Shown here: positions 6,301 to 51,000 of the stretch, in pieces
How the letters are laid out: each line of letters starts with the position of its first letter
How positions within the stretch are numbered: the stretch's first letter is position 1
Position numbers and translations under genes: made by a program
NCBI GenBank assembly: GCA_954871525.1
Contig: OX940869.1
Location: 12,919,001-12,983,000, forward strand
DNA from: Parietaria judaica
Lineage: Eukaryota; Streptophyta; Magnoliopsida; Rosales; Urticaceae
DNA: 64,000 nucleotides
Reading direction: 5' to 3'
Notes under the pieces: generated by a model
The model's database searches: none
Seen by the model: only the letters and a program-made list of their open reading frames with translations
Told to the model about the DNA's origin: nothing

Positions 6301-7466
6301 AGCAGAATCTATATGATGTTGGAAACATATGAGTTGCATGTCGTAGGAAACAAATCAAATTTACAAGACATTATTTTGAACAAAAGTTATAGTTTATGTA
6401 TTTCATTATACGAAGACAAGTGTCATTGTTCGAGAGGATATACCAAATATTACTGTTGAACAAGGTCTTTAGATTATTATACGAGATGACTCTCTTAAAT
6501 GGTTCCTGGTCGAGTATCATCGTGCGAAATAGGGACACACATGACACAACCGAGACTAGTATGTGATAGGAAGAAAAGAATGGTTATCGGCTTGGGAAAA
6601 GTTTTAGTCTTAGATACCATGTGAGATTCACATGGTAAAATATTAAACCTTAGGAAGGTGGGACTAAAATCTCAAGAACACAAAAATTTATGCAAATGAT
6701 TTCTTAAGCCTTAGCGAAATCATAGCTCATTACCTAGCGAGTGATAAACTTTGAAAACAATTAACGGTGTTCGTAACTGGTAGTTATAAAAGTTGTTTTT
6801 AGGTATATCGCATACTTTGTAGAATGGGGATTATTAAGCAAGATAGCGTACATCTCTCCTTATTGGAGTTATACAACTCATGGCCTCCTTGTATGGAATG
6901 ACTCATGAAATTCGTGGCCACCCTCAAGTTGGTAAAGAGTTATACTTGGTTAATTCAATGATTTTGATCCAAGAAAACAGGAAATTGGAAAATGGAAAAA
7001 TAGAAGTACAAAATCCATGGTCTGTGTCACTCTCCGAGTAGTATAGATGAAAAGGAATAAAGTTACGTGAAAGAACCAAAAGTTTTTTCTCAATTGTCAT
7101 TAATAGGATAAAATATCGGATCATCGAAATTTTTATGGATTGTGAGTAGCGATGTTTTACTAGAAACCTCTTGCTATTTTGGTGATAACTACCAATGGCC
7201 AACACTGCAAAATCCTACAGGGTCGCAACGGAAGCGGAGTAAGAAACGAGGTTTCATGACACAAGATGTTGTGAAAAGTAAGGACTTATCAAAGGACCAT
7301 AACGAGTCAAAGGCACTAAATATTATCACCTGGAATTCAAATCTCGGCATCTTTGTGCAAGTGAGAGATTGTTAGAACCTTGCAGTATAAATGCCCAAAG
7401 TTTGGGATTGGACCTGAATGGGCCCCTGTGAATAAATAGGTTGATTCATGATATTGATTAGAGAAT
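6301..7466. other. Non-coding flank of the old Copia remnant, target of the next element
   Basis: No supported gene. The short ORFs at 6924-7205 and 7142-7375 lack recognisable features and overlap on opposite strands. The sequence may include the old element's 3' LTR. It ends with agaat at 7462-7466, the left target-site duplication of the element at 7467-17270. Confidence 0.4.
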
Positions 7467-8210
7467 TGTAGAGGGGGTTTTTCACCACCCTTTTCCAGTC
7501 ACAAAGACAATCATCAAATAATAAATAAAATGACAACAAATGATGAGTATCTCTGTTTTATTATGATTTCCGAAATGAGCTCGGTTTTCTTCCGTTAAAT
7601 AGCTGGACAGATGAAGGATCATGAGCCTCAGATAATTCTATTACAAGATCTCTTTTTCTTGCTTTTGCTGAGTCTTTTTTCTCTCCTTTTTGTTCGAATC
7701 ACCAACTAACCAACCTCTACAAAATGAGGCTTATCTTGCCTTTTATAGAGTTGCAATACTTTCCCCTTCTATCCTTCCCGCCCTTTTTCTCTTTAATAAT
7801 CATTTTCTGACGTGATTTGAGGGCAGCGGGGTTTATCCTCACTTTATGTCACCTCCGAGCATGCTCCCGTAATGGGTAGGTGCGCCGCATTAAATGCGCG
7901 TCTCGTCAGCCGTCGCTGACGCTCTCATCGAGGGAGTAGGTCGGCTTCATTAAATGCACGTCTCTTCGGCTGTCACCGGGCTCTGCATAATCATCATGAC
8001 GAAGTTCCTCATCGAGTCGTGTGGGACGCTTCATCGCGACCCGCTTGCTCGCGTGGCTGCGTCCCCTCGCTGATGAACCTCCTCGGGGGCGTCCTTCCTC
8101 GGGGATAACTCCCTCTTCGCTGGTGAACTTCCTCGCCTCCCTCATGTCGTTTATGGACAAAACGACACGAGTTGTGTTGAGGATGGATTTGACCAAATCC
8201 GACCTTAACA
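7467..8210 (-). repeat. 3' LTR of the F-box-carrying element
   Basis: A 744-bp copy of the LTR at 16511-17270. In the sense (minus) direction it runs TGTTAAGG...CTCTACA. A TATA-like box (CTATAAAAGG, minus) lies at about 7739-7748. It lacks a 15-bp repeat unit that the other LTR has near 17132-17146. Confidence 0.93.
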
Positions 8211-8226
8211 TTTAGTCCCCCATTTT
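8211..8226 (-). promoter_or_regulatory. Polypurine tract of the F-box-carrying element
   Basis: Read on the minus strand this is AAAATGGGGGACTAAA, directly abutting the TG of the 3' LTR. It is the expected plus-strand primer for reverse transcription and fixes the element's orientation. Confidence 0.75.
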
Positions 8227-8784
8227 ATCAAGTGTATACACTTGGTAAAATAAAGTATAACTGCCTTGGGGATTGGCACTAACCGGCGCCGATTGACTCG
8301 TGGTCGGTGACTCCTTCTTCGGCTCCTCGCGTGGTCATATTATGACGTTGCTCCCTTCCCTCGCTAGGCTTCCTTTGCTTTCCTAAGCCCCAACTAAACT
8401 CTCAGCGACGAAGATTTCTCAACGTTGCTCGGGTCCGGGGCCCACCTCAATTTTGCTTTCCCAAAAATCTGTCAGCCTCGAATCTTACGCACGTCCCTTC
8501 AGCATTGAATGACCATCCTTTTTTGCATTTGAGGGCCTGTAGAGATTTATAACGGGCCTTTGAAATGAACCGTTGATAAGTTAGCAGGCTTCGATTTTGG
8601 GCCGTCAGATTAAGGACGTGTCTACTCATCACTCTTCCCTTTCTATAAATTCGAAATTCAAAACCATTTTTCCAGGCATTTTTTCATATTTTTTTCAAGA
8701 ATTCTCTCCAGGTTTCTTTTCACTGTTGTTCATCCTCATCTCCTCGTTCCCGAAATTCTTCCTCCTTCTCCCTCAGACGCCTCG

Positions 8785-11646
8785 ATGGGTCCATCCCGCT
8801 CCGGCCCAATCTTTAAGACTCGGAGTCCCCCTTCCGTCATGACGGAAGAAGGCTTGAAGTATATCGTCGACAACCACACTGACTCAGGGACCTGCTTTGC
8901 CCGTCTCCCTCTCGAGGGCGAGTTCGCCGATGAACCTCAGAGCGACTTCGTTTGCGTCTATGAGTCATTCTTCCGCATCGTCGGCCTTCGCTTCCCGACG
9001 CCGCTCCTGGTCGTGGCGTTTCTCTACGCCTTCGGGGTTCCGATTGCTCAGGTGAGCCCTAACACTCTTCGCCTCCTCCTTTGTACATTGGCCATTGCAT
9101 GTGAACAGAAAGTGGAGCTCACGCTCGAGGACCTGATGCGTCTCTTCAAAGTCTCCCGTAATCCAAAGAATCTGGGTCGTTTTGCCATCTCTCATCGCGT
9201 CCGACCGCACATCCTCCTGAACACACCCTCAAACGAATCCGGCTGGGAGAATAAATATTTTTTTGTTCGTGTGGACAATTCTAACTTCGGTCCCCACCAT
9301 GCTTTCCTATCGACAGATTTGGTGCTCGAGGGAGCGGACCTCCCTTGATTCAAGCTTGAAGAGAATGAGGAGGCCGAGGCGCGGTTCAAGAGCATCCACG
9401 CTGCTCTCCTTGCCAATCCCAGGCGTGATTGGAGTAAAGACTTCGGGGGCCAGCGGCTTGAGAAATCTGGGGTTTATCAATTGGCCCGAATACACGGGGC
9501 GCCCCCTAACACTCTTCTCCCGAAAGGTTTCCTTCGCGAACCGGCCCCGGAAGGGTCTCCCGTGGAGCGGAAGAAACCTGCTCCTAGGCCGAAGAAGAAC
9601 GCCGAGGATATAGTCGTGGCTACTAGGGATAGCGCTCCCGTCGGTCGGGATCGGGAGGCGCACAGATCGTCGAGGTCCCGGGCAGGGTCTGACGCTCCTC
9701 GCTTCATGGGGCTCACCCCCCGAGAGGGCGGTTTCTCGAACAAACGCCCCGTCGAGGATACTGGTGACGAGCGGCGAACAAGGGCGAGGACGGAGTCCGC
9801 GGCCCGCCCCTCGCAAGATACCTACCGCTCCTCGAGGGGATCTCCTCGGGAAGAAAACTCTCTGGGCAAGCGCCCCGCCGAGGAAGCGCGTGACGCTTCT
9901 CTGGCGAAGAAGACGAGGGTTCCCGACCCGACTCCTGAACTCGAGGCGGCTGACCCGTCTCAGGGAGCCGCGGGAGGGACTTCGGGCACCGCGCCTGTCG
10001 AGGGCACAACGGGGAGGACAAGGCCGGTGGCGGACGTCTGCGTACACCCCGCCGAGATCTCGCGAGAGAGACTGGAGATGGAAGACATCGAGCACCTGGT
10101 CGTCGCGCCGGATGCTCCTCCTCCGCCTCCGTCGGGGGCTGAAGACCCCATTCCTCTTTCTGCTTCGGAGCCCGCGATCCGGTCTTCCCTGTCACCGCCT
10201 CGGGGAATCCCCGATGAAGTGATGCGAAACCCGGTTGTGGCCTTAACGCCTCCGACTCAACCTTTGGTCAAAGGGACCAATGCTCCCAACGACGGAGATA
10301 CGGGGCCCGTTGGCGAGGAAGACGCTCCAGGACAGATCCTCCCCGGGCCCACGGAAGAACACTCCAGGGCGCTCCCCGACGTGAATCCCGCTAATCCGAA
10401 GCTTCTTCCCGACGTTCCCGGCGTCGAGGCCCTCGAGGGCTCAATGGCCTGGCCTTCCCCTTGTCTTACCGGCGTCTCCAGCTCGCAAGTACCTCTTGTC
10501 GCTCCTCCCGGCGCGTTGCCCCAATTAGCGGATGGCTTGACGCAGCCTTCTGAGCCGTCCCTTGACCTCGAGGGAATCCCCGAGGAGGTTCCTACCGGGT
10601 CGCCGCGGGCTCAAACCAGCTTCCCAATCTTGCCGCCTCCGGGAGCACTTCCCGCGGCTGAAGCTTCTCATGGGCTCGTCGAGCCTTCCAGCGATCCCGT
10701 GGGGAACCTAGAATTGGTTGACCGCGTTGTCCAGGGGGTGGCCCAGTTGTCGGGCGTTATCGTGGCCATGCAGCTATCCGCCGCTAGGGTAGAGAGAAAG
10801 AGCAATGAGTTGTCGGCAGAACTCTCATTAGTCCGGGAACGGTTTGAGGCTTCCACCCACGACGGGCAGAAGTTCCAGGGGCAGATCGAGAAGCTTTCCT
10901 CGGAGCTCGACGAAGCCAAATCTACCTTGGAGTCGGAAAGCTCATTGCGCCGGGCCGCCGAGGCCGAGCTCAATGACGCCAAGTCCATCTTGGAATCGGA
11001 AGTTTCGCTGCGCCGGGCCGCTGAAGCCAAACTCGCGGATCAGCAAAACTCTTGCGCTGTTATGGAGGCGAGCCTCTCCGACAAACTCCGGCTTCAAGCG
11101 GAATGCCTTGCTCAGATAGGCGAGGCCGTTGGCGTATCGCCTGAACGGGAAGACCAGCTGGTGTCCGGGGTCAATGCCGCGCTGAGGAAGCTCGCCGATG
11201 ACCTTGAGGCTGCGCGAGCCGAGGCAGCTGAGGAGCGTCGTGGCCGGGAGCGCTTGTTCGAGGAGGCTCAAGCCAAGTTGGAGCGTCTGTCGGTGAAGTA
11301 CGATTTTCTTGATCAATCAATCAACGCCCATCGCTTGGCCGCTGTGTACCAGGCCAACATCGCCTTGGTCGAGAAGAACCCCCTGTTGGCACAAGCCGGG
11401 GGCCTCGATACACGCTTATCCTCGTGGCGCGAAAGCCGCGATAAGCATCGGGCCGTGGTTAAAGAGCTGGACCAGAAGTCTACCCGGGATCCCGGATCTC
11501 CGCCGCTCTCTCCCTGCAATCCGCCAACCTCGGACTGTCGGAGACTTGAAAGCCTTGCTTCGGAGGTGGTAGCCCTTGGATCGGCATTGCGCGATGGATC
11601 CGGCCCGAGCACCGAGACCCCGGCGCTCCCAGAGGCCACGGTATAG
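8785..11646 (+). CDS. First exon/ORF of the antisense gene
   Basis: An open frame from the ATG at 8785, with an in-frame TGA at 9346 that interrupts otherwise continuous coding to 11646. Codon use is GC-rich, unlike the AT-rich surroundings. The frame ends ...EATV-stop, where the last codons coincide with a splice donor (ACG|GTATAG), so the TAG at 11644 may be intronic. The ATG at 8785 was chosen as the first in this frame; another in-frame ATG follows at 8839. Confidence 0.6.
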
Positions 11647-12960
11647 GATGTTTTCTTAGAGCCTCCCTTTCTATTTCCCGCTTTTGTAAATTTCGCATTT
11701 CGTGGCTTGTGCTGTATTTTCACTGTAATCCAAGCATAATTACCGTATGAATATAAAGAAATATTTATTGGGTTACCTTTTTCTCTCATCGTCGAATCTT
11801 TTTCTACTATCGCCCTTGTATGCTTGCCCTTTCCCTATCCCTTCTCTTATCGGGCTTCTTTATTGTTTCTTCCGTATTCCCATTCTCTCTTTTTCTCCTC
11901 AGGCTAGAGGTGGCGTCGTTGTACTTTGCCCTGACACTTCTTTCCCCCCGCTACGGAGGAGGTCACGAGGGGGCTGGGGAGTCCGCCCCTGCCCTTGCGC
12001 CGGTGAAGGCTTTATCAGGGAACGAAGGCATTCCCCCCGAGGCTCTAGAGGCTAAGATCGCCGAAAGTAAGGCCGAGCACGATGAATATAGGCGCCTCCT
12101 CGCTATTGCCGAAGAATCCCTTCTCGAGGAGCGGCAGCGTTATCGGCGGTGCAAGGACACTCTTTCGGCCCAGCTCTGGCAGAAGAATGAGTGTTTCAAT
12201 CGTATTGCCGATGCCATAAACCTGTCGCCTGGTCGGGAGGAGCAAATCTCCTTTCATGTCAAGGCCACGCTGAGGAAGCTCGTCAAGGATCGCGACGCAG
12301 CCAGGAGTTGGGCTATAGAGGAAGAATTCTCCCGCCTACGCCTCTACCACCAAGCGGTTGACAAGCTGAAGCGTGCCTCCGAAAGGTTTGGTGTGCTTGA
12401 GGGGATTGCTCGTACTCAGCGCCTGCTGGGCGGCGTTCTCTCGAATATCAAACTCGTCGAGGGATTACCTTCCCGCTCGACTGTTGGCGAGCTCCGAGCC
12501 AAACTGCCAAGGTGGCGCAAGTTGGAGCAGGAGTACCTGGCTGATTTGGCCAAACTGGAGATGAAAACCTCCGGTGACCCAAACTCTCCTCCGCTTTCTC
12601 CCTGTCTTCCCCAAGGCGTTGCTAGGGTGCGCTCGCCGGGTTTCGACGTTCTTCCCTCCTCGTCGAGTACGGTATGAGATGGATCAGCACAAATAATTTT
12701 TACCTCTTCCTTCTGGGGTCGATCCCTTGCTCTTGGTTCCTTCTCTGCAGGCCGATAGCAGGGCTGATGCGGATTTAGCAAGAGTTTCTTCGGGTAAGCC
12801 TCAAGGACTTCGTGCTGACGATCCTGCTTGCCTAATTGCGGACGACATCATTCGTCGATGCTGCGACATCATTATTCAAGAATGTGCCGATGCGGTTTTG
12901 GATCAAGATTCCTCTAATGATGGCGTCGCGCGGGGGAATCGGTCCTTGCGAGAGTTATAG
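8785..12960 (+). CDS. Antisense element gene: putative gypsy-type transposon protein with coiled coil (one stop)
   Basis: Lies antisense to its host LTR element. The first exon (8785-11640) is one frame of 952 codons, broken only by TGA at 9346-9348. Residues about 13-190 resemble the plant 'putative gypsy type transposon' domain (GLRFPTPLLVVAFLYAFGV; VELTLEDLMRLFKV). A Pro/Arg/Glu-rich disordered stretch follows, then a long coiled coil at about residues 650-905. A second exon (about 11910-12671) and third (12751-12960) are suggested by GT-AG signals. The second intron (12672-12750) is phase 0 and joins two open frames cleanly. The first intron (donor at 11641) has its best acceptor AG at 11902 out of frame; AG at 11908-11909 keeps the frame. 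The product's function is unknown; antisense ORFs of this kind are typical of Tat elements. Splicing is inferred. Confidence 0.6.
11820..12677 (+). CDS. Second coiled-coil module of the antisense gene
   Basis: An ORF whose body (from about 12040) is a coiled coil similar to the end of the preceding exon. Both share an ..I..A....P.RE.Q.S...A.LRKL..D..AAR... pattern, a later R..W...E phrase, then GDP.SPPLSPC and a donor reading ACG|GTAT. The N-terminal part up to about 11909 is hydrophobic and probably intron translated by chance. Likely a duplicated exon; function unknown. Confidence 0.55.
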   Translation: MLALSLSLLLSGFFIVSSVFPFSLFLLRLEVASLYFALTLLSPRYGGGHEGAGESAPALAPVKALSGNEGIPPEALEAKIAESKAEHDEYRRLLAIAEESLLEERQRYRRCKDTLSAQLWQKNECFNRIADAINLSPGREEQISFHVKATLRKLVKDRDAARSWAIEEEFSRLRLYHQAVDKLKRASERFGVLEGIARTQRLLGGVLSNIKLVEGLPSRSTVGELRAKLPRWRKLEQEYLADLAKLEMKTSGDPNSPPLSPCLPQGVARVRSPGFDVLPSSSSTV

Positions 12961-13149
12961 TATGCATATGTATCCGGGGTGTAACTACGAGTTGTAAATA
13001 ATGATACTGCGTTTTGTCTTTTTTGAATCCAATGGACATGTGATGACGATGATTTTCTTTTATATGAGTTTGCTTGCGATCTTCGAATCTCTGTGAGGGT
13101 TTGCTTGGTGCCTTTAGTCGTGAATGTGATTTTTCTTTGCTCGGTACTT

Positions 13150-14690
13150 TCGTCGTGGGCACTTCTGCCTCTTTTAATTTTTGCTCGGTACTCTCGCCGT
13201 GGGCACTCTCGCCTTTTTTGATTTCCTTCTCGGCACTCTCGCCGTGGGCACTCTCGCCTCTTTTGATTTTTGCTCGGCACTTTCGCCGTGGGCACTCTCG
13301 CCTCTTTTGACTTTTGCTCGACACTCTCGCCGTGGGCACTCTCGCCTCTTTTGATTTTTGCTCGGCACTTTCGCCGTGGGCACTCTCGCCTCTTTTGATT
13401 TTTGCTCGGCACTCTCGCCGTGGGCACTCTCGCCTCTTTTGACTTTTGCTCGACACTCTCGCCGTGGGAACTCTCGCCTCTTTTGATTTTTGCTCGGCAC
13501 TCTCGCCGTGGGAACTCTCGCCTCTTTTGACTTTTGCTCGACACTCTCGCCGTGGGCACTCTCGCCTCTTTTGATTTCTGCTCGGCACTCTCGCCGTGGG
13601 CACTCTCGCCTCTTTTCGTTTTTGCTCGGCACTCTCGCCGTGGGCACTCTCGCCTCTTTTGATTTTTGCTCGGCACTCTCGCCGTATATAGGATCTCGGC
13701 CTGTTTTGCCGGACCGGGCTTGCTCGGCACCCTTAGCCTTATATATGATCTCGGCATGTTTTGCCGGACCGGGCTTGCTCGGCACCCTTAGCCGTATATA
13801 GGATCTCGGCATGTTTTGCCGGACTGGGCTTGCTCGGCACCCTTAGCCGTATATAAGATCTCGACATGTTTTGCCGGACCGGGCTTGCTCGGCACCCTTA
13901 GCCGTATATATTTTCTTGGTGTTCTTGTCGTAGTTGTCTTCTGCGGGTATCGCTAGGTTTCGTCGGGTACGAGCCGACTAATTCCCAGGATCCCTTAGGC
14001 ACTCTCGCCTTGTATATTTCTTCGGCGTTCTTGGTAGCCCGGGCTTGCTCGGCGCCCTTAGCCGTAAATAGGATCTCGACATGTTTTGCCGGACCGGGCT
14101 TGCTCGGCACCCTTAGCCGTATATAGGATCTCGACATGTTTTGCCGGACCGGGTTTGCTCGGCACCCTTAGCCGTATATAGGATCTCGACATGTTTTGCC
14201 GGACCGGGCTTGCTCGGCACCCTTAGCCGTATATAGGATCTCGACATGTTTTGCCGGACCGGGTTTGCTCGGCACCCTTAGCCGTATATAGGATCTCGAC
14301 ATGTTTTGCCGGACCGGGCTTGCTCGGCACCCTTAGCCGTATATATTTTCTTGGTGTTCTTGTCGTAGTTGTCTTCTGCGGGTATCGCTAGGTTTCGTCG
14401 GGTACGAGCCGACTAATTCCCAGGATCCCTTAGGCACTCTCGCCTTGTATATTTCTTCGGCGTTCTTGGTAGCCCGGGCTTGCTCGGCGCCCTTAGCCGT
14501 AAATAGGATCTGGACATGTTTTGCCGGACCGGGCTTGCTCGGCACCCTTAGCCGTATATAGGATCTCGACATGTTTTGCCGGACCGGGTTTGCTCGGCAC
14601 CCTTAGCCGTATATATATGTATATATATTTTGAAATTTTCTCGGCGCTCTCGCCGGATTGGGCTTGCTCGGCACCCTTAGCCGTTTTTTT
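13150..14690. repeat. Two-tier tandem-repeat array inside the LTR element
   Basis: About 13180-13690 is a 44-bp unit (ctcggcactctcgccgtggg, then a cactctcgcctctttt tail) repeated about 11 times. About 13690-14630 is a 55-bp unit (ctcggcacccttagccgtat, then a block with gttttgccggacc) repeated many times. A higher-order duplication of about 435 bp is visible: the block beginning tatattttcttggtgttctt occurs at about 13906 and 14341. The array ends in a T-run at 14684-14707. Tandem repeats between the coding part and the 3' LTR are common in Tat-type elements. All three minus-strand frames across the 44-bp part are open. Confidence 0.9.
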
Positions 14691-14997
14691 TTTTTTTTTT
14701 TTTTTTTGCCAATACACTTTCCCTCCTAATTGGTGTTACCACCGAGCAGAGTTGCATACACACTTTGCCAACTTTATAATTTGCTCGCTCCTTAACAAAT
14801 AAAAATAAAACAAAAAGAAAAAGAAACACACACATACATAGACATCAGAAATCCGACACAACGAACCCAAACAAACTTCTATCACCTATGATAATCTACT
14901 AATGGTAGTTTAAAAAGGGGTAGCCGCCCCAATTCTCTCCTCGCTCCGAGCAGCTTATGAGCCTTACTCTGGGCAGCTTATGAGCCTTACTCCGGGC

Positions 14998-15999
14998 TCA
15001 CTCCTCTTCGATGATCGAGCAGGCTGATGACGCGATTTTCTCCACAGAGCTCCTGCTGGGGCGACCGAAGTTACATTCCGGGCAGAGGTCAGTGTACCAC
15101 GTGGTACCAAGGATGTAGCACGACCTGCAAAAACCGCAAACACGCCCATCCCGCCATTGCCCAAAACACGGCGGGCGGACGGAGTCTCCTGCTTGAATCC
15201 TCGTTGGCTTTTCGTAGACCAGGACATTTCTGTCGCACCGTCTGCAGAATTCCATGTCGAGCAGACGACCGCGTGAGGCATGCGCCTGCTCCTCGGAATG
15301 GTTGGCTGGATTCCCTGCCGCGAGCAGAGGGGGAAGGTCCTCAAGTTTGACCTTGGTTCCCTCCACGAACCTGGGAAATAAACCGTTGACCCTCATGAAT
15401 TTTATCCCGTGCTCGATGGTGGACAAGTTGCTGACCACGTCATCTAAGGTGATTTGGTGGCAGCGTGGCAGGCATAGCTTCACGAGCGTCGGGTTGCCCC
15501 GCATGATCGTCTCCACCGCGGTGTTGGTGATCCCGATGCACCCATCCAACGTCAAAGTCTCCATCTTCCCTTGAGATCTCCTTGCCAGCCTCATGAGATT
15601 GTCGTCTTCCATCCGTTCGCTCAACGGGTTGTAGATGCTGATGTTGCGCCACAGAAGGTTGTTTCCCCGAGCCTCGTCGCGCAACGACGTGCATACCATC
15701 TCCACCGCGAGGAGCTCCTCGGGCGTGAGATAAGGCAGAACCAGTTCCAACGCGGGGTGCGGTTCACCCGGGATCCTTGACTGCTCTTGATCCCGCTGGC
15801 CCTCCGCGATGTCCTCATCCATTGGACATGGCTCGCTGCTTTCCGGCCACTCCTCGTGCTTCCAGAAGTCCGTCACCTCGTAATCATCTCCTCCTCGTGC
15901 CTCAGTCGCTCCCTCCTTGGGCCATCCCCAGTCCTCATCCACGATCATCTCTGACTCGTCTGTGTGACTCTGGCCGGCATCTCCTTCTCTGGGTGCCAT
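14998..15999 (-). CDS. Captured SKIP14-like F-box protein
   Basis: An intact intronless ORF of 333 codons. Residues 1-80 are acidic and disordered. About 81-120 form an F-box (LELVLPYLTPEELLAVEMVC ... LLWRNI), which would bind SKP1 in an SCF ubiquitin ligase. About 121-185 carry leucine-rich-repeat-like text (METLTLDGCIGITNTAVETI, LVKLCLPRCHQIT). The C-terminus is Cys-rich with CxxC pairs (C252/C255, C288/C291/C294, C306/C309), like the end of plant F-box SKIP14 proteins. At 333 residues it is shorter than the roughly 450 I recall for SKIP14. The ATG context (AAGATGGC) is good. It lies in sense about 490 bp after the element's PBS, where gag normally sits, so the LTR TATA at about 16784-16793 could drive it. 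SKIP14-like is from memory of the family; substrates are unknown. Confidence 0.8.
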   Translation of the reverse strand: MAPREGDAGQSHTDESEMIVDEDWGWPKEGATEARGGDDYEVTDFWKHEEWPESSEPCPMDEDIAEGQRDQEQSRIPGEPHPALELVLPYLTPEELLAVEMVCTSLRDEARGNNLLWRNISIYNPLSERMEDDNLMRLARRSQGKMETLTLDGCIGITNTAVETIMRGNPTLVKLCLPRCHQITLDDVVSNLSTIEHGIKFMRVNGLFPRFVEGTKVKLEDLPPLLAAGNPANHSEEQAHASRGRLLDMEFCRRCDRNVLVYEKPTRIQAGDSVRPPCFGQWRDGRVCGFCRSCYILGTTWYTDLCPECNFGRPSRSSVEKIASSACSIIEEE

Positions 16000-16488
16000 C
16001 TTCTCCTCGTGTGCTTCCCGGCCTGTATTTCAAAAAGCAAGCACTGGTTTCGGAGTGAGAAAGGATCTTTTGTTTTCTGGGTTGAGAGAACGATACTTAT
16101 CTGGGAGTTAACCGAGTTGGTTTCTATTTCCGCAGACTCATTGCTTCTGACCTTCTCCAAACTTCCCATTTTATAAACGCTGGTTGTTTCGCAAGCGACC
16201 CTTCGCATTCTCTCTTTCGCTGTCGCTTCACGACGTTTCGGAAGTTGCTCCCCTTCGTCGATACGCGTGCCCTCCTTTTTCTGACCAACCGTCTATCAAT
16301 CGGCTTCTCTTAAATGCAAGGAGTCCGTACGTCTCCCCTTCTTACGTCACTCATGTCCCTTGAGTTGCCTCTTTATATTCTGCTTGCTATTTTCGCACGC
16401 TCAACCGTCGAGCGCTTCGCTGACGATGGCGTCGTTTGATAGCGTCATGTCCCTCCAAATTCCTGGCTGTGAGTTAGAAAGAAAACAA
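16000..16488 (-). other. 5' leader of the F-box-carrying element
   Basis: Non-coding stretch between the primer-binding site and the F-box ATG. Short ORFs on both strands have no recognisable features. It would be the untranslated leader of an LTR-initiated transcript. Confidence 0.5.
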
Positions 16489-16510
16489 AGCCCCATGGTG
16501 GGCGCCAAAC
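16489..16510 (-). promoter_or_regulatory. Primer-binding site
   Basis: On the minus strand the LTR end CTACA is followed by GT and then TTTGGCGCCCACCATGGGGC. PBSs beginning TGGCGCC are typical of Tat/Ogre-type Gypsy elements. The position fixes the right-hand LTR as the 5' LTR. Confidence 0.75.
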
Positions 16511-17270
16511 TGTAGAGGGGGTTTTTCACCACCCTTTTCCAGTCACAAAGACAATCATCAAATAATAAATAAAATGACAACAAATGATGAGTATCTCTGT
16601 TTTATTATGATTTCCGAAATGAGCTCGGTTTTCTTCCGTTAAATAGCTGGACAGATGAAGGATCATGAGCCTCAGATAATTCTATTACAAGATCTCTTTT
16701 TCTTGCTTTTGCTGAGTCTTTTTTCTCTCCTTTTTGTTCGAATCACCAACTAACCAACCTCTACAAAATGAGACTTATCTTGCCTTTTATAGAGTTACAA
16801 TACTTTCCCCTTCTATCCTTCCCGCCCTTTTTCTCTTTAATCATCATTTTCTGACGTGATTTGAGGGCAGCGGGGTTTATCCTCACTTTATGTCACCTCC
16901 GAGCATGCTCCCGTAATGGGTAGGTGCGCCGCATTAAATGCGCGTCTCGTCAGCCGTCGCTGACGCTCTCATCGAGGGAGTAGGTCGGCTTCATTAAATG
17001 CACGTCTCTTCGGCTGTCACCGGGCTCTGCATAATCATCATGACGAAGTTCCTCGTCGAGTCGTGATGGGACGCTTCATCGCGACCCGCTTGCTCGCGTG
17101 GCTGCGTCCCCTCGCTGATGAACCTCCTCGGGGTATTCCTCCTCGGGGGCGTCCTTCCTCGGGGATAACTCCCTCTTCGCTGGTGAACTTCCTCGCCTCC
17201 CTCATGTCGTTTATGGACAAAACGACACGAGTTGTGTTGAGGATGGATTTGACCAAATCCGACCTTAACA
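16511..17270 (-). repeat. 5' LTR of the F-box-carrying element
   Basis: A 760-bp LTR, nearly identical to 7467-8210. A TATA-like box (CTATAAAAGG on minus) is at about 16784-16793. It has an extra 15-bp direct repeat (cctcctcgggg tandem) near 17132-17146. The TSD agaat follows at 17271. Confidence 0.93.
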
Positions 17271-17275
17271 AGAAT

Positions 17276-20489: not shown

Positions 20490-20850
20490 AAGTGTGGCAG
20501 TCATCAATCCCGTGAGCCGAGGGGGCAAGAAAGGGTAAGTTGTACAATCTCGCATCACCTGGGCAAGGGGATGTGCTTATGGGACGTTCCCGAGTTTGTG
20601 CAGGTATGACACTACACAGTTATTTGAGATTTTACAAGTATGGGACTGTATGGTCGAAGAGGCATAAAATAATTGATTAGTACTACCTATGTCAACTACT
20701 TGTATCTTATTTTTGGTAGCTCGTTCACAAGAACTCCAAAGTTAAGCGTGCTTGGCTTGGAGCAATCCTGGGATAGGTGACCTCCTAGAAAGTTTCTTGG
20801 GAAAGAATCGGTCCACGACGAGATCCTTCTTTATTTTGGTACATAGTGAT
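20490..20850 (+). mobile_element. Cassandra-like TRIM fragment with 5S rRNA-derived segment
   Basis: About 20695-20795 closely tracks the 3' two-thirds of plant 5S rRNA (agaactccaaagttaagcgt, gcttgg, gggataggtgacctcct), including the internal pol III promoter zone. Upstream, about 20494-20540 has a purine-rich gagggggcaagaaaggg that fits a polypurine tract, and tgtacaatct at 20541 would then start a 3' LTR. Cassandra TRIM retrotransposons are known to carry 5S-derived sequence in their LTRs. Only one LTR copy and a little of the internal domain remain, so this is a truncated copy. Confidence 0.7.
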
Positions 20851-21430: not shown

Positions 21431-21583
<153 letters not shown>

Positions 21584-40919: not shown

Positions 40920-41040
40920 AATTCCGCCATTGAAGCTCGTTCATCGGAGCTCGCATTCTGCCATTGTTGATCATTGTCCGAGCTCAAGCTTTTCTCAGTT
41001 TTCAGCTCAGATCAACATCTCCTTCCATCTTCAATCAAGA

Positions 41041-44000
41041 TGGAGACTCAGATTACCAAGCAAGACGCTGCAAATCAAGCCATCGCGATCAAATCTCCGA
41101 TCGATGATCAGCTGAGCGTCTATTACTTGCATCACTCTGATAATCCAGGTGTGATTCTTGTTTCTCAAGTTCTTACCGGTGATAACTATGCATGCTGGTC
41201 AAAATCTATGAAGATCGCACTCTCTGTCAAGAATAAACTCGGATTTCTTGACGGATCTTTGCCAAAACCGGTCTCCGGTGATCCTCAGTTGATCAATTCT
41301 TGGATTCGCAACAACAATATGGTAGTTTCTTGGATTCTTAACTCGGTGTCGAAAGAAATCGCCTCCTCTATACTTTTCGAAGATACAGCTAGCAACATCT
41401 GGAAAGACCTCAAGGAGCGGTATCAATAAGGAAATGGTCCGAGAATTTTTCAACTAAGGCGTGAGATTGCTAACTTACGTCAAGGAAACGAATCTGTAGC
41501 AACTTTCTTCACTAAATTGAAGGGTTTATGGGAAGAGCTCAAAAATTTCAAGCCTCCCTGTGAAACTAAGGCTTGTTTAGACTTCTACAGTACAGAATAT
41601 TCAATGAAATTCCTTATGGGACTCAATGAGTCTTACTCAGGAATCAGAGGGCAAATTCTTCTCATGGATCCTATTCCGATCATCAATCGCATTTTCGCTC
41701 TTGTTCTTCAAGAGGAAAAACAGAGAGCGATAGGGGCTGAATCCTCCATTGTTGATACAAGCAATGCCATGGCCATGGCTGTGAAGGATGATCCGGGTCC
41801 GAGAAAACAGTTCAGAAAAGAAAGGCCGTTTTGCACTCATTGCAAAATGCCCGATCATACTGTGGACAAATGCTTCAAGATTCATGGATTCCTGCCCGGA
41901 TATGGAAATAGAGTCAGAGCACAAGCGGGAATGATAGAGATCAAGCAGAAGGACAATGAAGCTTCCCAGTCGGCTTTCTCTTCAAAGCAATGTCACCAGC
42001 TCATCGAGATGCTTTCAAACCACCTTACTTCAACTGGGAATCTCAACGTCAAGCCTTCTACTTCAGATGCCTCAATCAATCTTGCTACTTTCGATGCAGG
42101 TTCTTTCTGTTTTCTCAAAGCTATGAACAACAAATTGTGTTTGCATAACTCGTGGATAATAGATTCTGGTGCAACAAGACACATTTGCAACCAGAAATCT
42201 AAATTTCTTTCTTTAAAGCCGCTTAATAATTCCACAGTTACTCTGCCAAACCAATTTGTTATTTAAGTTCACTATTATGGAGATGTCAAATTGAATGACC
42301 AAAATATCCTTTATGATGTTCTGTTAATCCCTAGTTTTAAGTTCAGTCTCTTATCCGTTAAAATGATCACAATGGATTCAAAAACTTCTGTTACCTTTTA
42401 TGATGATTATTGCTTAATACAGGATTCTCTCAAGACCAAGATGATTGGCAAGGGTAGAGTCAAAGATGACCTTTACATTTTCAATGAAGAAACTGTTAAT
42501 TCTGTTACTTGTAGTTTGAATAATGTTTCTGCCAATTTGTGGCATGTTAGGCTTGGTCATCCCTCTTATAAGGCATTGACCCATTTACATAACATTTTGA
42601 ATATGAATGGTAGCAATAATGTTTTACCCTGTGAAATATGTCCTCTTGCTAAGCAGAAGAAACTTCCCTTTGCTTCTCTTAATAACATGTCTGATGCTTC
42701 TCTTGACTTAATTCATTGCGATATTTGGGGTCCATATCATGTTACTTCACATTCTGGTTTTAAATTTTTTTTTTACTTTGGTTGATGATCACACAAGGTT
42801 TACTTGGGTCTACTTGTTGAAACATAAATCTGATGTGCACGAGATTATACCGAGATTTACCACTATGATTGAAAGACAATTTTCAAAACCTGTTAAAGCT
42901 TTTAAATCAGATAATGCTCGTGAGCTGATATTTGCTGATTATTTTTCAGAAATGGGAATAATGCACCAATTTTCTTGTGTTGAGACCCCACAACAAAATT
43001 CAGTTGTGGAGAGAAAACACCAACACATCTTAAATGTCTCTCGAGCATTACTTTTTCAATCCAAAATCCCGGTAAAATATTGGTCAGAGTGTGTTCTAAC
43101 TGCGACCTTTCTTATTAATAGAACCCCTTCCTTTGTTCTCAAAGGTAAAAGCCCGCATGAAATTATTTTTAACAAGGTTTTTGACTATAATACCCTTCGA
43201 GTTTTTGGCTGCCTCGTATTTGCTTCAACTTTGTAGGTGAATAGGAGCAAATTCTGTCCACGTGCAAGAAAATGAGTATTTGTTGGATATCCTTCTAATT
43301 ACAGGGGTTACAAAATATTAGATTTAGAAAAGAAAGAAATTTTCATATCAAGAGATGTCATTTTTCATGAACAAATTTTTCCTTACCATTCAGCATTAAG
43401 TACAAACATTTTTGCAGATCCTTTTGAGGGCATTGTCATTCCTAATGCTCAACCTAATATCAGCATTGAAGAATTATCTCCACATGAAGATTCTGACATC
43501 ACAGATGCAATTAAATCAACCCTCTTTCATACTGATCAGTCAGCGGCAAATCCATCTGAACCGGATAATTCAGCTCAACAGCAAAGTGCCTTGAGAAGAT
43601 TTACTCGAGAGACAAAGAAGCCGGATTATCTGCACGATTATCATTGCAATTTGATCCTTGATCGAGAAAAACATTCTTCTCCACAAAGCCTCTCCAAAGT
43701 CTTAAGCTATGACTGACTCTCTAAAGGCTTCAAAGCCTTCTGTCTAGCTGTTTCTATAGACTTTGAGCCTCAGTTTACAATCAGGCTTCGAAGTATTCTC
43801 ATTGGAATGATGCTATGAGAGATGAACTAAATGCAATGGAGGATAACAACACTTGGATAGTCAAACCTTTACCGCCAGGGAAACAAGCCATAGGATGCAG
43901 ATGGATATATAAAAACAAGTTTACTGCAGATGGTGTTCTCTCTAGGCGTAAGGCAAGACTTGTGGCCAAAGGTTACAGCCAACAAGAAGGGATCGACTAT

Positions 44001-45317
44001 GTCGATACTTTTTCTCCGGTTGCAAAACTTGTAACAGTTAAACTTATGCTCTCCCTTGCAGCTTCACATGATTGGCATCTTGCTCAACTAGATATAAATA
44101 ATGCTTTCCTCAATGGAGAGCTCGAGGAAGAAGTTTATATGAGGCTTCCTCAAGGATACACACCTCAGGGGGAGATTGCAAAAGATCAGAACTTAGTTTG
44201 TCATCTTCAAAAATCGATATATGGACTGAAACAGGCCTCTAGGCAATGGAACCTCAAATTCACTACAGTTATTATTGGTTTTGGTTTCAAGCAATCAAAG
44301 GCTGATTACTCCTTATTTACAAAAGGATCAGGTTCTGACTTTGTAGCCTTATTACCATACGTAGATGATATACTTGTTTTGGGTCCGAACAAGTATGTGA
44401 TTAATCAAGTTAAGCACGATCTTCAGTCAGCCTTCAAGTTAAAGGACTTAGGAGAAGTCAAATTTTTCCTTGGCCTAGAAATTGCAAGATCAAAACTGGG
44501 AATAAGCATCTCTCAAAGGCAATGTACATTGCAGTTATTAGATGACTTTGGTTTTTTGCAATGCAAACCAACCAAGACTCCCATGGAAATAAACTCTCAA
44601 CTAAGTGCAACTGACGGAGATCTGCTTGACGACCCCACTCCTTACAGGAGACTCATCGGCAGATTGCTTTACCTAACCATAACCAGACCCGACATCAGCT
44701 TCACTGTTCTTCATCTCAGTCAGTTTTTATCTTCTCCAAGGGATCCTCATCTTCAAGTTGCCCATCGCCTTCTCAGATATCTGAAGGCCCAGCCGGGACT
44801 TGGACTGTTCTACCCCTCCAGCTCTAACAGCCAAGGCCTCAAAGCTTATTCTGATGCTGATTGGGGATCTTGTCCAGATACAAGACGTTCTGTCACCGGT
44901 TTCTGCGTCTTCTACATGGACTGTTTGATCTCGTGGAAAGCTAAAAAGCAAACCACTGTCTCTCGTTCTTCAGCTGAGTCAGAATACAGAGCTCTTGCTT
45001 CAGCTTCAGCAGAACTTATGTGGATTCAACAGTTATTAAGAGATCTACAAATCAACATATTTTTGCCTATTTTGTATTGTGACAACCATGCTGCAATGCA
45101 CATTGCATCCAATCCAGCCTTTCATGAACGCACAAAACACATCGAGATTGACTGTCATTATGTCAGAGATTGTGTTGCAAAGAAAAGACTTCAACTTCTT
45201 CCCGTGAACACCAAGATGCAACTTGCTGATGTCTTCACTAAAGCTCTCCCAGGAACCACATTGTCCAGTTTACTCTCCAAGATGTCATTGCTGAACATAT
45301 TTGCAATCACATCTTGA
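41041..45317 (+). pseudogene. Copia gag-pol polyprotein, interrupted
   Basis: Starts at ATG 41041 (METQITKQDAA...). Domains in order: gag N-terminal (YYLHHSDNPGVILV, the Copia gag_3 type), CCHC-like knuckle (FCTHCKMPDHTVDKCFK) at about 41827-41880, protease (WIIDSGATRHIC) near 42150, pre-integrase (LWHVRLGHPSYKAL), integrase (42700-43230, PQQNSVVERK), then RT and RNase H in an intact 500-codon frame from 43815 (LPYVDDILVLG near 44350; YSDADWGSCPDTRRSVTG; YCDNHAAMHIA). Breaks: TAA 41427, TAA 42264, a frame change in the T-run at about 42766-42777, TAG 43234, TGA 43273 and a one-base loss near 43775. It would encode the proteins for reverse transcription and integration but is now non-autonomous. 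Confidence 0.92.
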
Positions 45318-45516: not shown

Positions 45517-47472
45517 AATACCGGTTTGTGTCTGCTCTTTCATTAATTTAATTTGATTTGGATATCTTTAGCTCTATTTACGAAATTACTCCTCGTATAT
45601 CCTATTTGAGAAGAACTAAAGAAAAAAAAAGTGATAGACCCCAATTTAGCTCGGTCGTCTCCGAAACTCACACTAACATGTACCGTTATGATCTAGGAGC
45701 AAGTTTTGTCCGTAATTAGGCTGATTTTAGAGTTTTCAGTGGTCGTAGTCAAATTATAATTTTTAGCTATTAATAATAAATAAATTATTATATGAAAATT
45801 ACTAATATCTAATATACGTTGGTCGTGAAATTACAATTACTAAATTGTTCTCTGGGGTTATTCGTTTCGAGAGTCCAACATTCTAAACAATCGATTTAGT
45901 GGGATGATTTAGGAATTAGGACTTTAGTGTTGTTTATTTTATTTTTATGTTGAGGACTAAGTCAGTGTTAGGGCTCAATCTAATCCGTTTAATCCGCCCT
46001 GCTCAAAATTGGATTAGGTCGGGCTGGACCCGACTGTTCTTCGAAGTTTGGGCCAATACCTTGGGTTTCGGCTAACCTGAAGAACCCGACCAATATAATT
46101 AATATATGATGTATATTAGTTTTTTCTCAAATTTTACTCAGGTAGTACAATCTTGAGTCTTTTTCATATTTATCGTTCTCAATTTTATTTTTCTTGATAA
46201 GATTTTCAAATCTCTCCACAACTTTTAGTTTTCATTTGAATCTAGTCAGTAATAATTCTTATATGAATATGTTTGAATATATTTATCATGTTTGACTATG
46301 GGTAGTAATCTTATGTAATTTAAAATACTTGTTAGGTTTTTTGAGTTGGTGCTCGATTCAAACACGTGTTTAGTTTATGTTTATTTAATGGATGTCATTT
46401 TTAAAAAAATTCAAGCACGAAGGCCTAATCCAATCCAACCGGAACATAATCAATTAGATTAAGCTCTTCAAAATATTGAGTTGGATTAAATATAGTTTTT
46501 TTCAACCCGAAACGAGCCAACCCATGTTCACAATTGTTAACCATTATTGAATGCGATTCTCTTTGGGCCACACATTTGGTTCTCAATTGGGCCGTGGGCT
46601 TGTTATCGTTACATACAAATTGTATATTCCCCATACTAAAACTATAAAATAGTGACAAATCTTTTCCGTCATATTGTTTTTTATTTTATTTACAATTGCT
46701 TCTCGGTGCAGGCTCGGTGGCATTTTCGATACCATCGAAGGGTATGCACTTCGGCGGGAGATGCACTTGCAGTTCGACTCGGCTTCATGCTCGCAAAAGA
46801 ATACGTTATTTCGCAATTCATGGTAAAATATGATGCGTCGACAATATTGGTTTGAAAGTTATTATCGATAATATTCGCGAGTTATTATAAAATCTAACTC
46901 TGTTATTGTTTTGGTCACCCTGCGTTCCATTAACACAATCCGTATAGTTTTTCTAAATTATTTAACGTTATTCCGTTTCGTATAGGCCCTCGACTATTTT
47001 AATTTCTCTGTTATTCCATTTTGATGAAAATAGCAACCTCTATAATGATATCATGGAGAGAAATCATGTATATTAATAAAGGTAAACTGCGGTTAAAGTA
47101 CTCAATGTTTGGATTTTTTTTAAGTTATGTACCTAATTTTTTTTTATTTTGCTTTGTAGCTAATGTGCCCAAGCTGCATTCTCTTAGCGGCTAATGTTCT
47201 CTTCGTTAATTTTTAAATAAATTAAAATTCTTCATGAATCTTTTGAATAAAAAAATCAAGAGAAAGTTATATATTGAAGAAAAATATATGAATTTTGCGA
47301 CAACAAATTTCAGTAGAAGTTAAAGAGAGTTGAATCCTTCAAATAAATATAAAAATTATTTATTTATTTTTTCAATTAATTGGTTTTCTTTATTCACTTG
47401 AAAAAACGATCATTTGCAAAGCCATATCTAGTGAGCCTCCCTACATCAAGATACGAAAACGACGTCGTTTAA
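45517..47472. other. Intergenic sequence and GH3 3' flank
   Basis: No supported gene. Patches near 45965-46100 and 46425-46520 carry aatccaa/gggttt/aacccga words that recall degraded hAT-like repeats. On the minus strand an AATAAATAA poly(A)-signal-like run sits at about 47357-47368, roughly 105 bp after the GH3 stop. Confidence 0.4.
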
Positions 47473-48014
47473 TCAGCGATAGGCCGTGCTGTGATACCTC
47501 CCAACGGTGGAGAGATCGAGAATGCGCAGGATGACTTGGTTGCTGGTGCAGCGCGGCGTCTTGAATTGGCTGAGCGCCGCCCCGTTGGCGATGAAGTGGT
47601 CGAGGATCTGCTTGAACGTGCCCCGCTCGACGACGCGCAGCTCCAGAGGCCCGATGGACTTGGCGCGGCGGGACACGACGTAGCCGTGGTCGACAAACGA
47701 GGTGTCCATCACCGTGCAGCACTCCTCGAGCACGGCCGCGTCGGCGTCGCCTTTGATCTCCCAGTAGACCACGTAGTGGCCGACGGGGCGGCTGGACACG
47801 TCGGCGTGGCTCGTGAAGTCGACAAGCTCGGCCCGGGCCTTGCGGGCGAGCAGCTCCGAGCCGCGCTCGACCACCATTTGAAGGTCCTTCTCTGTGTTCT
47901 TGTCGACGTTCAGCGCCAGGATGAGCTTCCTCCGGCAGAGGAAGCTCAGCTTCGGCGTGCCGTTGTGAAAGCCGGCCACTTCCACCACGTCGCCGAGCCT
48001 GCACCTGTACAACC
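47473..48014 (-). CDS. GH3.10: GH3 exon 4 (C-terminal domain)
   Basis: Starts after TTTCAG at 48015-48020 and completes the Gly codon begun in exon 3. It encodes LYRCRLGDVVEVAGFHNGTP through RCTSN...STAYR and TGA at 47473-47475. It holds the mobile C-terminal domain with the third ATP-binding motif. The exon is markedly GC-rich. Confidence 0.9.
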
Positions 48015-51000
48015 CTGAAATTACGTTCAAGATTATGATCAAATATCATCAATTATATATATATATATATATATTTAAGAATAAATCTATATTTGTAGGG
48101 CTGCAACTGGTCGGTTAACCTGTTTATTTTTTATTATTTGGTATCCTTAACCTAATTCCGGTTAGTCATCTTTTAATAACCTTAATTGTTTTTAAAACCG
48201 GTTAACCTAATTTCCGGTTATCAAAATCCGATTAACCTGTTTAATAACTTTAACTTGTTTTTTTTTTATATAGCATTTAACAGAGTTTATCTCTACGATA
48301 AAATATGTCGGTCCAAAATAAATCGCAATAAAACAACCGAGTCTAAAAAGAAATATACCGGTCTAAAACATAAATCCAAAAAGTACAACAATTATAAATA
48401 AAAAAAATATTCAGTTCAACAACTCGAAGAGACTTTGACTGAAAGAGAGAAAAACATACTTAATTTAATTTTAAAATATTTAAATAAATAAATAAATATC
48501 AAAACCAGTTATAAAAACCAGTTACAAAAATAACCGGTTTTGAAAAGAAAAAAAAACCTGTAACCTTATTCTGTTTGAAACCGGATACGGTTAACCTTAA
48601 CCTGTTTTTAAAAGAATTCGGTTACGGTTATTTTAAACCAGATAATTTTCGGTTACCGGTTATTTTGCACACCCCTAAATGTTTGGGAATAGTGAATTTG
48701 TATGGTGCAACGCAACCACAAAATATCATTTTGGTGTAAATTTTTGCACCATTTTGGTGGTGATACTAATCTTATTAATAAAATAACAAAGGAAATAAAT
48801 ATAAATGATAAAGTGAACAGATATTAAATGATTAAATATGAACAAGTATTAGTTAGTGAACAGTATTTGATGTAGTTTTTAGTGTTGTGATTGGAATAGT
48901 ATAATACTAAATAGTGTTTGCTATTAAAATTTTAATTAAAATAGTTAAATTCTATTACTAAATTTTATGGTTGAGATGCTCTTATTATATGAAAGTTGAT
49001 ATATGAAGAACCAATTTCTATTCGATTGGTGATTGGTTATTTTGTGAACTACAGTTGTAACTAGTTCATCAGCCTTTATATGTTCTAGTTACAGCCACAG
49101 CCGTGACCACAGTTGTGCATGTGCAGAAACTTGCGATCAAAGAAGGTTAAGGATTTATTCGTATATTATTCTGGATTGATTTATTTTCATATCTTATTTG
49201 ACCTCTTTGGATTCGCACGAAAGTCTCCCTTCGGTTACGCATAAGTTGCATGGATTGTGGAACTACCTTTTAGCAATCGCATAATCTTAGGAGACTACTA
49301 GGGTTGATATAAATATGAAGAATGCGCCTCAGTTCATCTTCAACCCTTCCCAGAGAATAACCTTGCGCTCAGTTTCATCAAGGTTATCAGCTTTCACAGT
49401 ACGGTGTTTATATCATCGATCATCCTACCTCGGGAGAGGCGTCGACTGCGTTATTGAGAACCAGACTGAAGGAGCCAGTCTAACGTCGACACATAGCAAG
49501 GGGAGTCCGACTTCCAAGAAGGAAGTGACCGCCGTCACAAGTCGGGACTCCATCACCGTTTCAAGACCAAGTTGTTCTATCAGCTATAGCTTCAGGGGGA
49601 GCCCTTTTCTTTTAGCTATTTTACTATCATTTGTAATTGGTGCTTGTAAACAATATTGGTGATTAATCTGGGTGAGTGCCCCGCAGAAGTAGATAGGTAT
49701 CGAACTGCGTTACCAAAACATCGTGTGTGTTCTTTATAGCTTTCACGTTGTGTTTGGTATTCGTATTCGTATTCGTAACCTTCATATAATCGGTAATCTG
49801 ACTTTACAATTGGTATCAGAGCTAGGCCACTGAAGAAATCTATCTTTGACTGCAAAGACAGTGGTAATCGTAGTCAGATACCTCCATCAACATGGCCTCC
49901 CGCGATTCCGCTTCTTCGGCAAGACCACCGCTGCTTGATGGAACAAACTACAATTTCTGGAAGATGCGCATGAAAGCCTTCATCCAGTCTCTTGATGCTC
50001 AAGCCTGGATCATTCTTAAGGAAAGATGGACTGAACCTGTAAAACATAATGAAGCAAATGAGTCTATTCCTAAGCCCTTGAACGAATGGACTACTGAAGA
50101 CCACTCTGCCTCAACCGCAAATTCTAAGGCCCTGAATGCTATTTTCTCATGTGTGGACGAGCATCAGTTCACTCTCATCTGTGTTCATGAAACTGCTAAA
50201 GAGGCATGGGATGCTCTGGAAAATCTTCATGAAGGAACCTTGGCTGTTCGTGAATCAAAACTGCAGATTCTCACTTCAAGATTTGAAAATCTCAGGACGG
50301 CTGAAGATTCAACTATAGCTGAATTTTACGAGCAACTCAAACAGATCTCCAATCAAGCCCATCAATTGGGAAAACCCTACACAGAACTCGAGCTCGTCAG
50401 AAAGACCCTTCGATCTCTCGCCAAAAGATTTTGACCGAAGATTGCAGCCATTGAGGAAGCTAAAGACGTAAAGACTATCAAGCTAGATCAACTCATTGGC
50501 TCCCTTCAAACCTATGAGATGAACTTGACTGACGAGGAAAAAGGTGCAGCAGGAGGAGTTGCTTTCAAAAGCTCAACTGAAGATCTCTCCAGGAGCTCAT
50601 CAATTGGAACCTTATCGTCTCAACCTAAAGAAAGTGTAGATGACCTTGCACTGCTTACCAAAAACTTTGGTAGGATGCTGAAAAAATTCCAAAAACGTCC
50701 CCCCTACAAGAAGGGAAGTAGCTCTAATCCTAACCACAACGCTGAAAATTTTCGCAATAATCCTGACAAGACTGCAGGTGGAGATCGCTCAACACCACGA
50801 GGGATTAAGTGCAGAGAATGTGAAGGATATGGTCATATTCAAGCTGAATGCTACAACACATCCAATCGTGAGAAGAAGTGCCAAGAATGTGGTGGATATG
50901 GACATGTTCAATCTCAGTGTGCCAACATTAAGAAAAAACAACGCTCCAAGTCATACAACTCCACGTTATCTGATGACGACTCTGAGGATGAAGAACATGA

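Follow-up and report, generated by a model that had tools for sequence, protein, structure and literature searches.

The window analysed here, a stretch of 64,000 nucleotides from Parietaria judaica (assembly GCA_954871525.1, contig OX940869.1, positions 12,919,001 to 12,983,000 of the forward strand), contains a long terminal repeat (LTR) retrotransposon in which an intact F-box gene occupies the place of gag and pol. Our reading, to which we give a probability of about 0.78, is that the element belongs to a Retand-like Ty3/gypsy family with two forms: form B, which encodes gag-pol, mobilises form A, and the F-box gene of form A was captured long ago and has been kept by selection. We observed the anatomy of the element, the sequences common to A and B, recombination between the two forms, several age layers, coding constraint, and an intronless gene with a poly(A) scar.

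An F-box gene in the place of gag-pol

The element (form A; 9804 bp, positions 7467..17270, sense on the minus strand) is delimited by its LTR pair and by a perfect target site duplication (TSD), AGAAT, read from the flanking sequence at 7462..7466 on the left and 17271..17275 on the right (no strand). Its 5' LTR (16511..17270, minus; 760 bp, TGTTAAGG...CCTCTACA, with TATAAA near 16791) and its 3' LTR (7467..8210, minus; 744 bp, with a 15-bp deletion) differ by 4 substitutions over 744 aligned bases, a 1-bp indel and a 15-bp indel. At a substitution rate near 1.3e-8 per site per year this divergence corresponds to an age of roughly 0.2 million years, in line with a preliminary description of the sequence that had called the element recently moved. 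The same description had seen no gag-pol in the 8.3-kb interior and had regarded the element as non-autonomous; this was confirmed by a Pfam scan of the three sense frames (E<=1, stops read as X), which gave no gag, protease, reverse transcriptase (RT), RNase H or integrase. Apart from the F-box, only Toast-rack_PspC-Cterm and CLIP_SPH_Scar were matched, both below their own cut-offs, and the positive control, a copia element elsewhere in the window, yielded gag and RVT_2.

The open reading frame (ORF) in gag position (14998..15999, minus; 333 codons, start context AAGATGG) begins about 490 bp downstream of the primer binding site (PBS) and is intact and in sense orientation, as first described. 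Pfam recognises an F-box-like domain (PF12937; E 7.3e-6, 26.1 bits against a curated cut-off of 24.3) at residues 80-122 (15634..15762, minus); the ORF also resembles the leucine-rich repeats of FBXL2 (whole-sequence E 2.2e-9), and its C-terminal part (residues 246-316; 15052..15264, minus) is rich in cysteine. The GC contents of 0.57, 0.46 and 0.71 at codon positions 1, 2 and 3 are coding-like. A chance ORF is ruled out, as none of 1000 sequences generated from a first-order Markov model of 14710-16510 reached 333 codons (longest 281), and a conserved viral-type gag, named in the preliminary description as an alternative, is ruled out by the homology to host F-box proteins. A search of a protein database with the F-box ORF gave no match; the antisense ORF of the element, used as control, gave none either, so that the database presumably contains no plant sequences. 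No relative was found by F-box scans of viral_contigs, genome_contigs and plasmids or by a PBS pattern scan of viral_contigs. An AlphaFold model of the ORF, run without an alignment, had a mean pLDDT of 35 and was discarded. An intron in the leader (16096-16023) that would extend the ORF was considered and not adopted: the donor site is weak, and two of three older copies lack the GTATCG motif.

Two forms of one family

In the 539-Mb genome, where the window lies at G000:C19:12919001-12983000, a search with the F-box protein located the ORF in at least 121 places (the window is one of them), with 82-100% identity over at least 321 of the 333 residues each (best 121 of 684 candidates); 83 of these matches have no in-frame stop and 38 have one or more. 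The ORF is thus kept by other copies. With the LTR as query, 2510 first-look candidates were obtained, of which 40 were scored, all 98-100% identical. From these 40 hits 20 stretches were fetched (cited by L numbers), which represent 19 insertions: 14 with the F-box gene (form A, including the recombinant L022 described below) and five with gag-pol (form B: L015, L016, L027, L028 and L020+L021, whose pol holds an insertion). Assignment to form B was made by Pfam for L015 alone (Retrotrans_gag, aspartyl protease, RVT_1, RNase H and integrase (rve)); the other four were recognised from their ORFs or by tblastn. The copies without the ORF that were read are the gag-pol partner form, and the case of family members that lack the ORF, with a nested retrocopy in the window element, does not apply.

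Of the 17 copies complete at both ends, the window copy among them, 16 have a perfect 5-bp TSD, and the LTR pairs of these 17 are 0-7 substitutions apart. The exception, L009 (L009:143-9365), has LTRs with 0 differences over 760 aligned bases, but unlike flanking 5-mers (CTTAT/GCTAT). The LTRs of all 17 start with TGTTAAGG and those of 16 end with CCTCTACA, L028 ending with CCTATACA. Sixteen of the 17 have the exact PBS core (L010 does not), as does L024 but not L025 of two copies cut in the 5' LTR.

LTR termini, PBS and polypurine tract (PPT; AAAATGGGGGACTAAA, 8211..8226, minus, adjoining the 3' LTR of the window element) are present and near-identical in both forms; the PBS of the window element (GTTTGGCGCCCACCATGGGGC; 16490..16510, minus) is common to form B save one or two bases. 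The first 61 nt or so of the leader (16450..16510, minus) are likewise near-identical, with 92.5-97% identity between A and B (alignments of 66-67 nt, 5 of them in the LTR, with L010 as query). The apparent 5' breakpoint of the gag-pol replacement is the end of this common leader, just upstream of the gag start of form B. At the other side, A and B have in common the repeat motif CGGCTAAGGGTGCCGAG and a related final stretch of about 167 bp. Between these ends the gene contents are exclusive: tblastn gave no gag or pol match in 15 A copies, and no F-box or antisense-ORF match in 4 B copies.

The LTRs of the two forms intermix. Mean LTR identity is 98.5% between A and B, 99.0% among A and 98.0% among B (13 A and 4 B copies), and in the tree of these copies (35 LTR rows) the B rows fall among the A rows. 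L015 stands in a clade with L011-L013 (support 96/83), and L028 pairs with L022 (93/75), near L018 and L026. L022 is a recent A/B recombinant: this short form of 4.25 kb (L022:35-4284) has the F-box gene and the 3' end of form B, without the antisense gene, its 5' side being A at 97% and its 3' side B at 92-96% (A 90% at the end), with the switch within the shared repeats. It has zero substitutions between its LTRs and a perfect TSD. The intermixing of LTRs and the recombinant together point to co-packaging of A and B RNAs and template switching between them.

As a side observation on form B, gag and pol lie in one frame with a single TAG between them, in the context TAG CAA TTA (4/4: L015, L016, L027, L028), which we take to be the context of the leaky tobamovirus stop; by this analogy, pol may arise by stop-codon readthrough.

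Older copies have the same organisation. L049, L050 and L051, with LTRs 79%, 88% and 87.5% identical to those of the window element (L049 and L051 were fetched without 5' LTR), share the order leader, F-box gene, repeats, antisense gene and 3' LTR. No gag or pol match lies inside any of the three; a 48%-identical pol past the 3' LTR of L051 belongs to another element. The LTR pair of L050 is 99.0% alike, and the older subfamily has therefore also moved recently. Of eleven more distant F-box loci (L053-L063), eight have 63-68% identity to the window ORF by tblastn, a figure that for most of them includes a 40-45-codon deletion counted against identity, and three (L057, L059, L062) have 82-87%. 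An A-run of at least 8 follows within 500 nt of the first stop at 7 of the 11 loci, and the repeat motif GGCTAAGG is present there at 5 of the 11.

Coding constraint on the F-box gene

Among the 15 young A copies, 13 of which are uninterrupted while L017 and L023 have one stop each, the pooled ratio of nonsynonymous to synonymous differences per site (pN/pS) in the F-box ORF is 0.250 in frame versus 0.997 and 1.213 in the shifted frames. For comparison, pN/pS in the 4 B copies is 0.22 for pol and 0.31 for gag, and the antisense gene gave 0.43 and 0.55 (14 copies). Between the window copy and L024, the sole pair tested, 12:22 nonsynonymous to synonymous differences depart from the neutral expectation (p 4e-5), as do the approximately 24:26 fixed differences between young and mid copies (p 0.0013). 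Singletons are near neutral in the young copies (22:13, p 0.25) and in the mid copies (28:6).

Constraint is also seen at larger distances. Compared with the window copy, 20 older copies, which form older layers on the F-box tree (35 rows), have dS 0.17-0.34 and a dN/dS ratio (w) of 0.24-0.39, and seven distant copies have dS 0.42-0.73 and w 0.23-0.29; L059, which has a stop, gave dS 0.28 and w 0.32. For the distant loci dN/dS was determined on L053-L056 and L058-L061, each with one long alignment, and L057, L062 and L063, which aligned in two pieces, were dropped. Judged from these comparisons, the constraint on the F-box ORF appears close to that on pol, and selection on the gene is supported.

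This bears on the simplest alternative, that the F-box ORF is a functionless passenger on a successful non-autonomous element. Gene capture by LTR elements is known in plants, many of the rice cases being described as pseudogene-like (PMC3726574, PMC7264820), and w between close relatives in our set reaches 0.99. A passenger is nevertheless very unlikely in view of a frame-specific constraint near that of pol, which holds between copies at dS 0.02-0.73 as well as between subfamilies, and of the conservation of individual positions: none of the 14 cysteines is lost in more than one of 35 copies, and 17 of 18 copies have the ATG in its AAGATGG context (GTG in L017). Raised w between close relatives is as expected from decay after insertion and is not itself a sign of selection.

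Alternatively, one or a few copies might serve the plant, and these source loci would then keep the ORF intact. Such host co-option we regard as improbable, given that the F-box tree has several layers and that an older subfamily likewise includes a recent insertion whose ORF is intact (L050).

Origin of the captured gene and its propagation

The host SKIP14 gene was searched with a SKIP14 sequence as probe (97 matches listed of 540 candidates). The orthologue found (G000:C3:47418206-47419772) matches the probe in three pieces at 57-68% identity, and its exons, joined via frame and splice signals, encode 462 residues. By the same signals a 244-bp GT-AG intron is predicted, at the position of which the element ORF aligns unbroken. 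With 35% identity over 216 residues (E 2e-33) to this orthologue, the ORF deserves the designation SKIP14-like that it had been given. In a protein tree of 18 rows, host SKIP14 lies on a long branch far outside the element ORFs.

Downstream of the ORF, the 3' untranslated part of the captured transcript (14708..14997, minus) ends in a poly(A) tract of 24 nt (14684..14707, minus; T24 on the plus strand), which forms the junction to the tandem repeats of the element (13136..14683, minus; units of 44 bp and 55 bp, motif CGGCTAAGGGTGCCGAG). A poly(A) run of 9-30 is present at this junction in all 15 young A copies (interrupted in L018), and runs of 10 and 14 were found in the older copies L049 and L051; L050 has no A-run of 8 or more there. 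The absence of the host intron from the ORF and the poly(A) junction indicate that a SKIP14-like mRNA, spliced and polyadenylated, was the source of the ORF, and the proposal that a host-derived F-box gene stands in for gag-pol is supported. The large distance between ORF and SKIP14 implies either that the capture is old or that the donor was another member of the family. A recent one-off capture or a nested retrocopy is ruled out by the presence of the ORF throughout the family and by the single common poly(A) junction. The preliminary description had read the open ORF as a hint of selection or of very recent capture; of these, selection is upheld by the in-frame constraint, and very recent capture is rejected in view of the at least 121 places and of diverged subfamilies with synonymous divergence up to about 0.7. 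The gag-pol partner, the poly(A) junction and the two-part structure had not been noticed in that description.

Low dN/dS could also reflect selection on host genes if the element were repeatedly re-seeded with host F-box cDNA or underwent gene conversion with host loci, as constrained host genes would yield low dN/dS between captures; as the host search listed 97 matches of 540 candidates, other host donors may exist. We consider this highly improbable, because the one intron-bearing SKIP14 found is far outside the element ORFs and because a single poly(A)/repeat junction and a single leader are common to the element copies.

We propose that long ago gag-pol gave way to a spliced, polyadenylated SKIP14-like F-box mRNA, with template switching as the most likely route. 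The resulting form A would have retained the LTR, the PBS and about 61 nt of leader, followed by the F-box cDNA with its poly(A) and, 3' of these, by the tandem repeats, the antisense gene and the 3' LTR of the element. Form A, which makes no gag-pol, would be mobilised in trans by form B, as suggested by the LTR intermixing and by L022, and the F-box ORF would be expressed from the LTR.

Several points weigh against this reading. The neutral expectation used above, 2.27 nonsynonymous per synonymous difference, derives from 50 LTR differences and ignores CpG context. Singletons of old copies are also skewed to synonymous changes (101:64, p 0.015), and a McDonald-Kreitman-like contrast of fixed differences and singletons has the expected direction and is not significant (p 0.10-0.28). 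Of the older copies, 18 of 20 had been picked as stop-free; among these 20, pooled pN/pS is 0.35 with the single pairs of up to 0.99 already mentioned, and w between six close relatives of the distant group is 0.33-0.85. The 121 scored F-box matches are the best of 684 candidates, hence intact copies are over-represented. In the LTR tree 13 of 32 inner branches are unsupported. Host SKIP14, with 35% identity to the ORF, need not be the exact donor gene. Finally, eight ATGs lie between the putative transcription start site and the F-box ATG and would hinder translation of an unspliced transcript, so that expression from the LTR may need splicing or reinitiation.

Possible functions of the F-box protein

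A protein with an F-box could act as a Skp1-binding adaptor of an SCF ubiquitin ligase that degrades a host protein limiting these elements; RNAs carrying the F-box gene, or kin RNAs in the same cell, would then replicate better. We put this forward tentatively as the most likely function, with somewhat less than an even chance. Viral F-box silencing suppressors exist, among them the polerovirus P0 protein. In plants, FBW2 is described as degrading AGO1 (PMC9035678). Given both precedents, removal of a silencing factor by an F-box protein is an existing mode of action, and it is this possible mode that likens the element ORF to P0 and FBW2; no sequence relation to either is claimed.

The main functional rival is a structural role, in which the F-box-derived protein with its Cys-rich tail binds nucleic acid or packages form-A RNA in a gag-like manner and does not take part in ubiquitination. 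The ORF sits after the leader in the place of gag and its cysteines are strongly conserved, as such a role would have it; the F-box domain is, however, the best-kept part of the protein (26/44 invariant residues versus 28/71 in the Cys part, 35 copies), and we regard packaging as unlikely. A more far-reaching and rather doubtful possibility is a truly bipartite retrotransposon, in which B would give gag-pol and A would give the antisense gene and a domesticated anti-defence F-box adaptor, with mutual supply in trans. The shared and freely exchanged LTRs would then keep the two forms associated, in the manner of multipartite virus segments.

If our reading of an old capture kept by selection in a two-form family is true, a transposon would have recruited a host ubiquitin-ligase adaptor that is constrained near the level of pol across subfamilies. 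Two questions become testable: how selection keeps a protein gene on an element with no copying machinery of its own, and whether some proteins of plant retrotransposons take host silencing apart. The F-box gene, being conserved, would also be a bait for the host target.

The antisense gene and affinity to Retand

On the plus strand, opposite to the sense of the element, lies a gene with three coding blocks (8785..12960): a reading frame at 8785-11643 is followed by blocks at 11907-12671 and 12754-12960 that fit predicted GT-AG introns. Its N-terminus weakly matches Transposase_28 (PF04195), with 67 of 69 profile positions and 15.2-16.8 bits against a cut-off of 26.2 (window copy, L049, L050, L051). 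The frame has one in-frame stop at 9346-9348 of the window, which is not found at that codon in 13 other A copies compared; the stretch is stop-free in 10 of these 13, though bases are missing in several. The blocks 9349-11643 (residues 536-714) and 12042-12578 are 33% identical over 179 residues, which suggests an internal duplication.

For Retand elements an antisense ORF with a TRP28 domain is reported in 97% of clusters, tandem repeats in about half of the elements, and some clusters without gag or other domains (PMC11963269). Form A resembles them in the antisense ORF region and in the tandem repeats ahead of the 3' LTR, and the 760-bp LTR and the 8.3-kb interior of the window element are inside the ranges published there. 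It differs in having an F-box gene where gag-pol would be, with gag-pol undetectable, and in having a gag-pol partner, form B, without the antisense ORF; the term 'F-box' has 0 occurrences in the text of the Retand paper (PMC11963269). On these features the family likely belongs to the Retand lineage of Ty3/gypsy.

Other features of the window

At 41040-45317 (Pfam) and 49892-54749 (judged from the ORF list) lie two copia-like elements whose coding parts are divided among several ORFs. A 5S rRNA-like sequence at 20680-20830, for which Rfam scans gave no 5S, is in our view reminiscent of Cassandra elements, and a GAT/ATG microsatellite of about 150 bp is found at approximately 21432-21583. ORFs at 47441-48049 and 60746-62388 (minus) have a third-position GC of 0.70-0.91 and presumably resemble pieces of a GH3 acyl-amido synthetase gene.

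Comparison with known systems

Element pairs whose non-autonomous member has a coding gene are already known, as are gypsy elements with additional host-like domains. Dasheng and RIRE2 of rice are a non-autonomous LTR element and its putative autonomous partner, as in forms A and B; Dasheng is not known to have a coding gene, unlike form A. Steinbauerova 2011 is cited as a survey of extra ORFs, and one study reportedly treats the reverse case, F-box genes that acquired a transposase domain (PMC12062965). Among the papers listed by searches of open-licence PubMed Central, none, as judged from titles, term counts and abstract openings, describes an LTR retrotransposon that keeps an F-box gene.

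RLG_Cereba and RLG_Quinta of wheat centromeres are described as an autonomous element and its non-autonomous partner that agree in LTR termini, PBS and PPT, Quinta, the non-autonomous one, keeping an intact coding gene (PMC11302176). Quinta supplies GAG with an unknown domain; form A has no GAG to supply and instead encodes an F-box protein of host descent. Complementary gene sets on two reverse-transcribing elements with a shared, recombining regulatory region are reported for rice ePVCVL and ePVCVL2 (PMC5491270); these are pararetroviruses and not LTR retrotransposons, and the sections of that report on which we draw mention no captured host gene. A host-like regulatory gene as an extra ORF, an AlkB m6A demethylase, is described in gypsy elements of Phalaenopsis, which unlike form A came from a screen of RT-anchored consensus elements (PMC9289625); the term 'F-box' has 0 occurrences in the text of that paper. 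Maize Bs1, finally, is an LTR element that likewise holds host gene segments. According to its description (PMC13317346) these stem from three genes and include no full-length ORF, whereas form A carries one intact gene across subfamilies.

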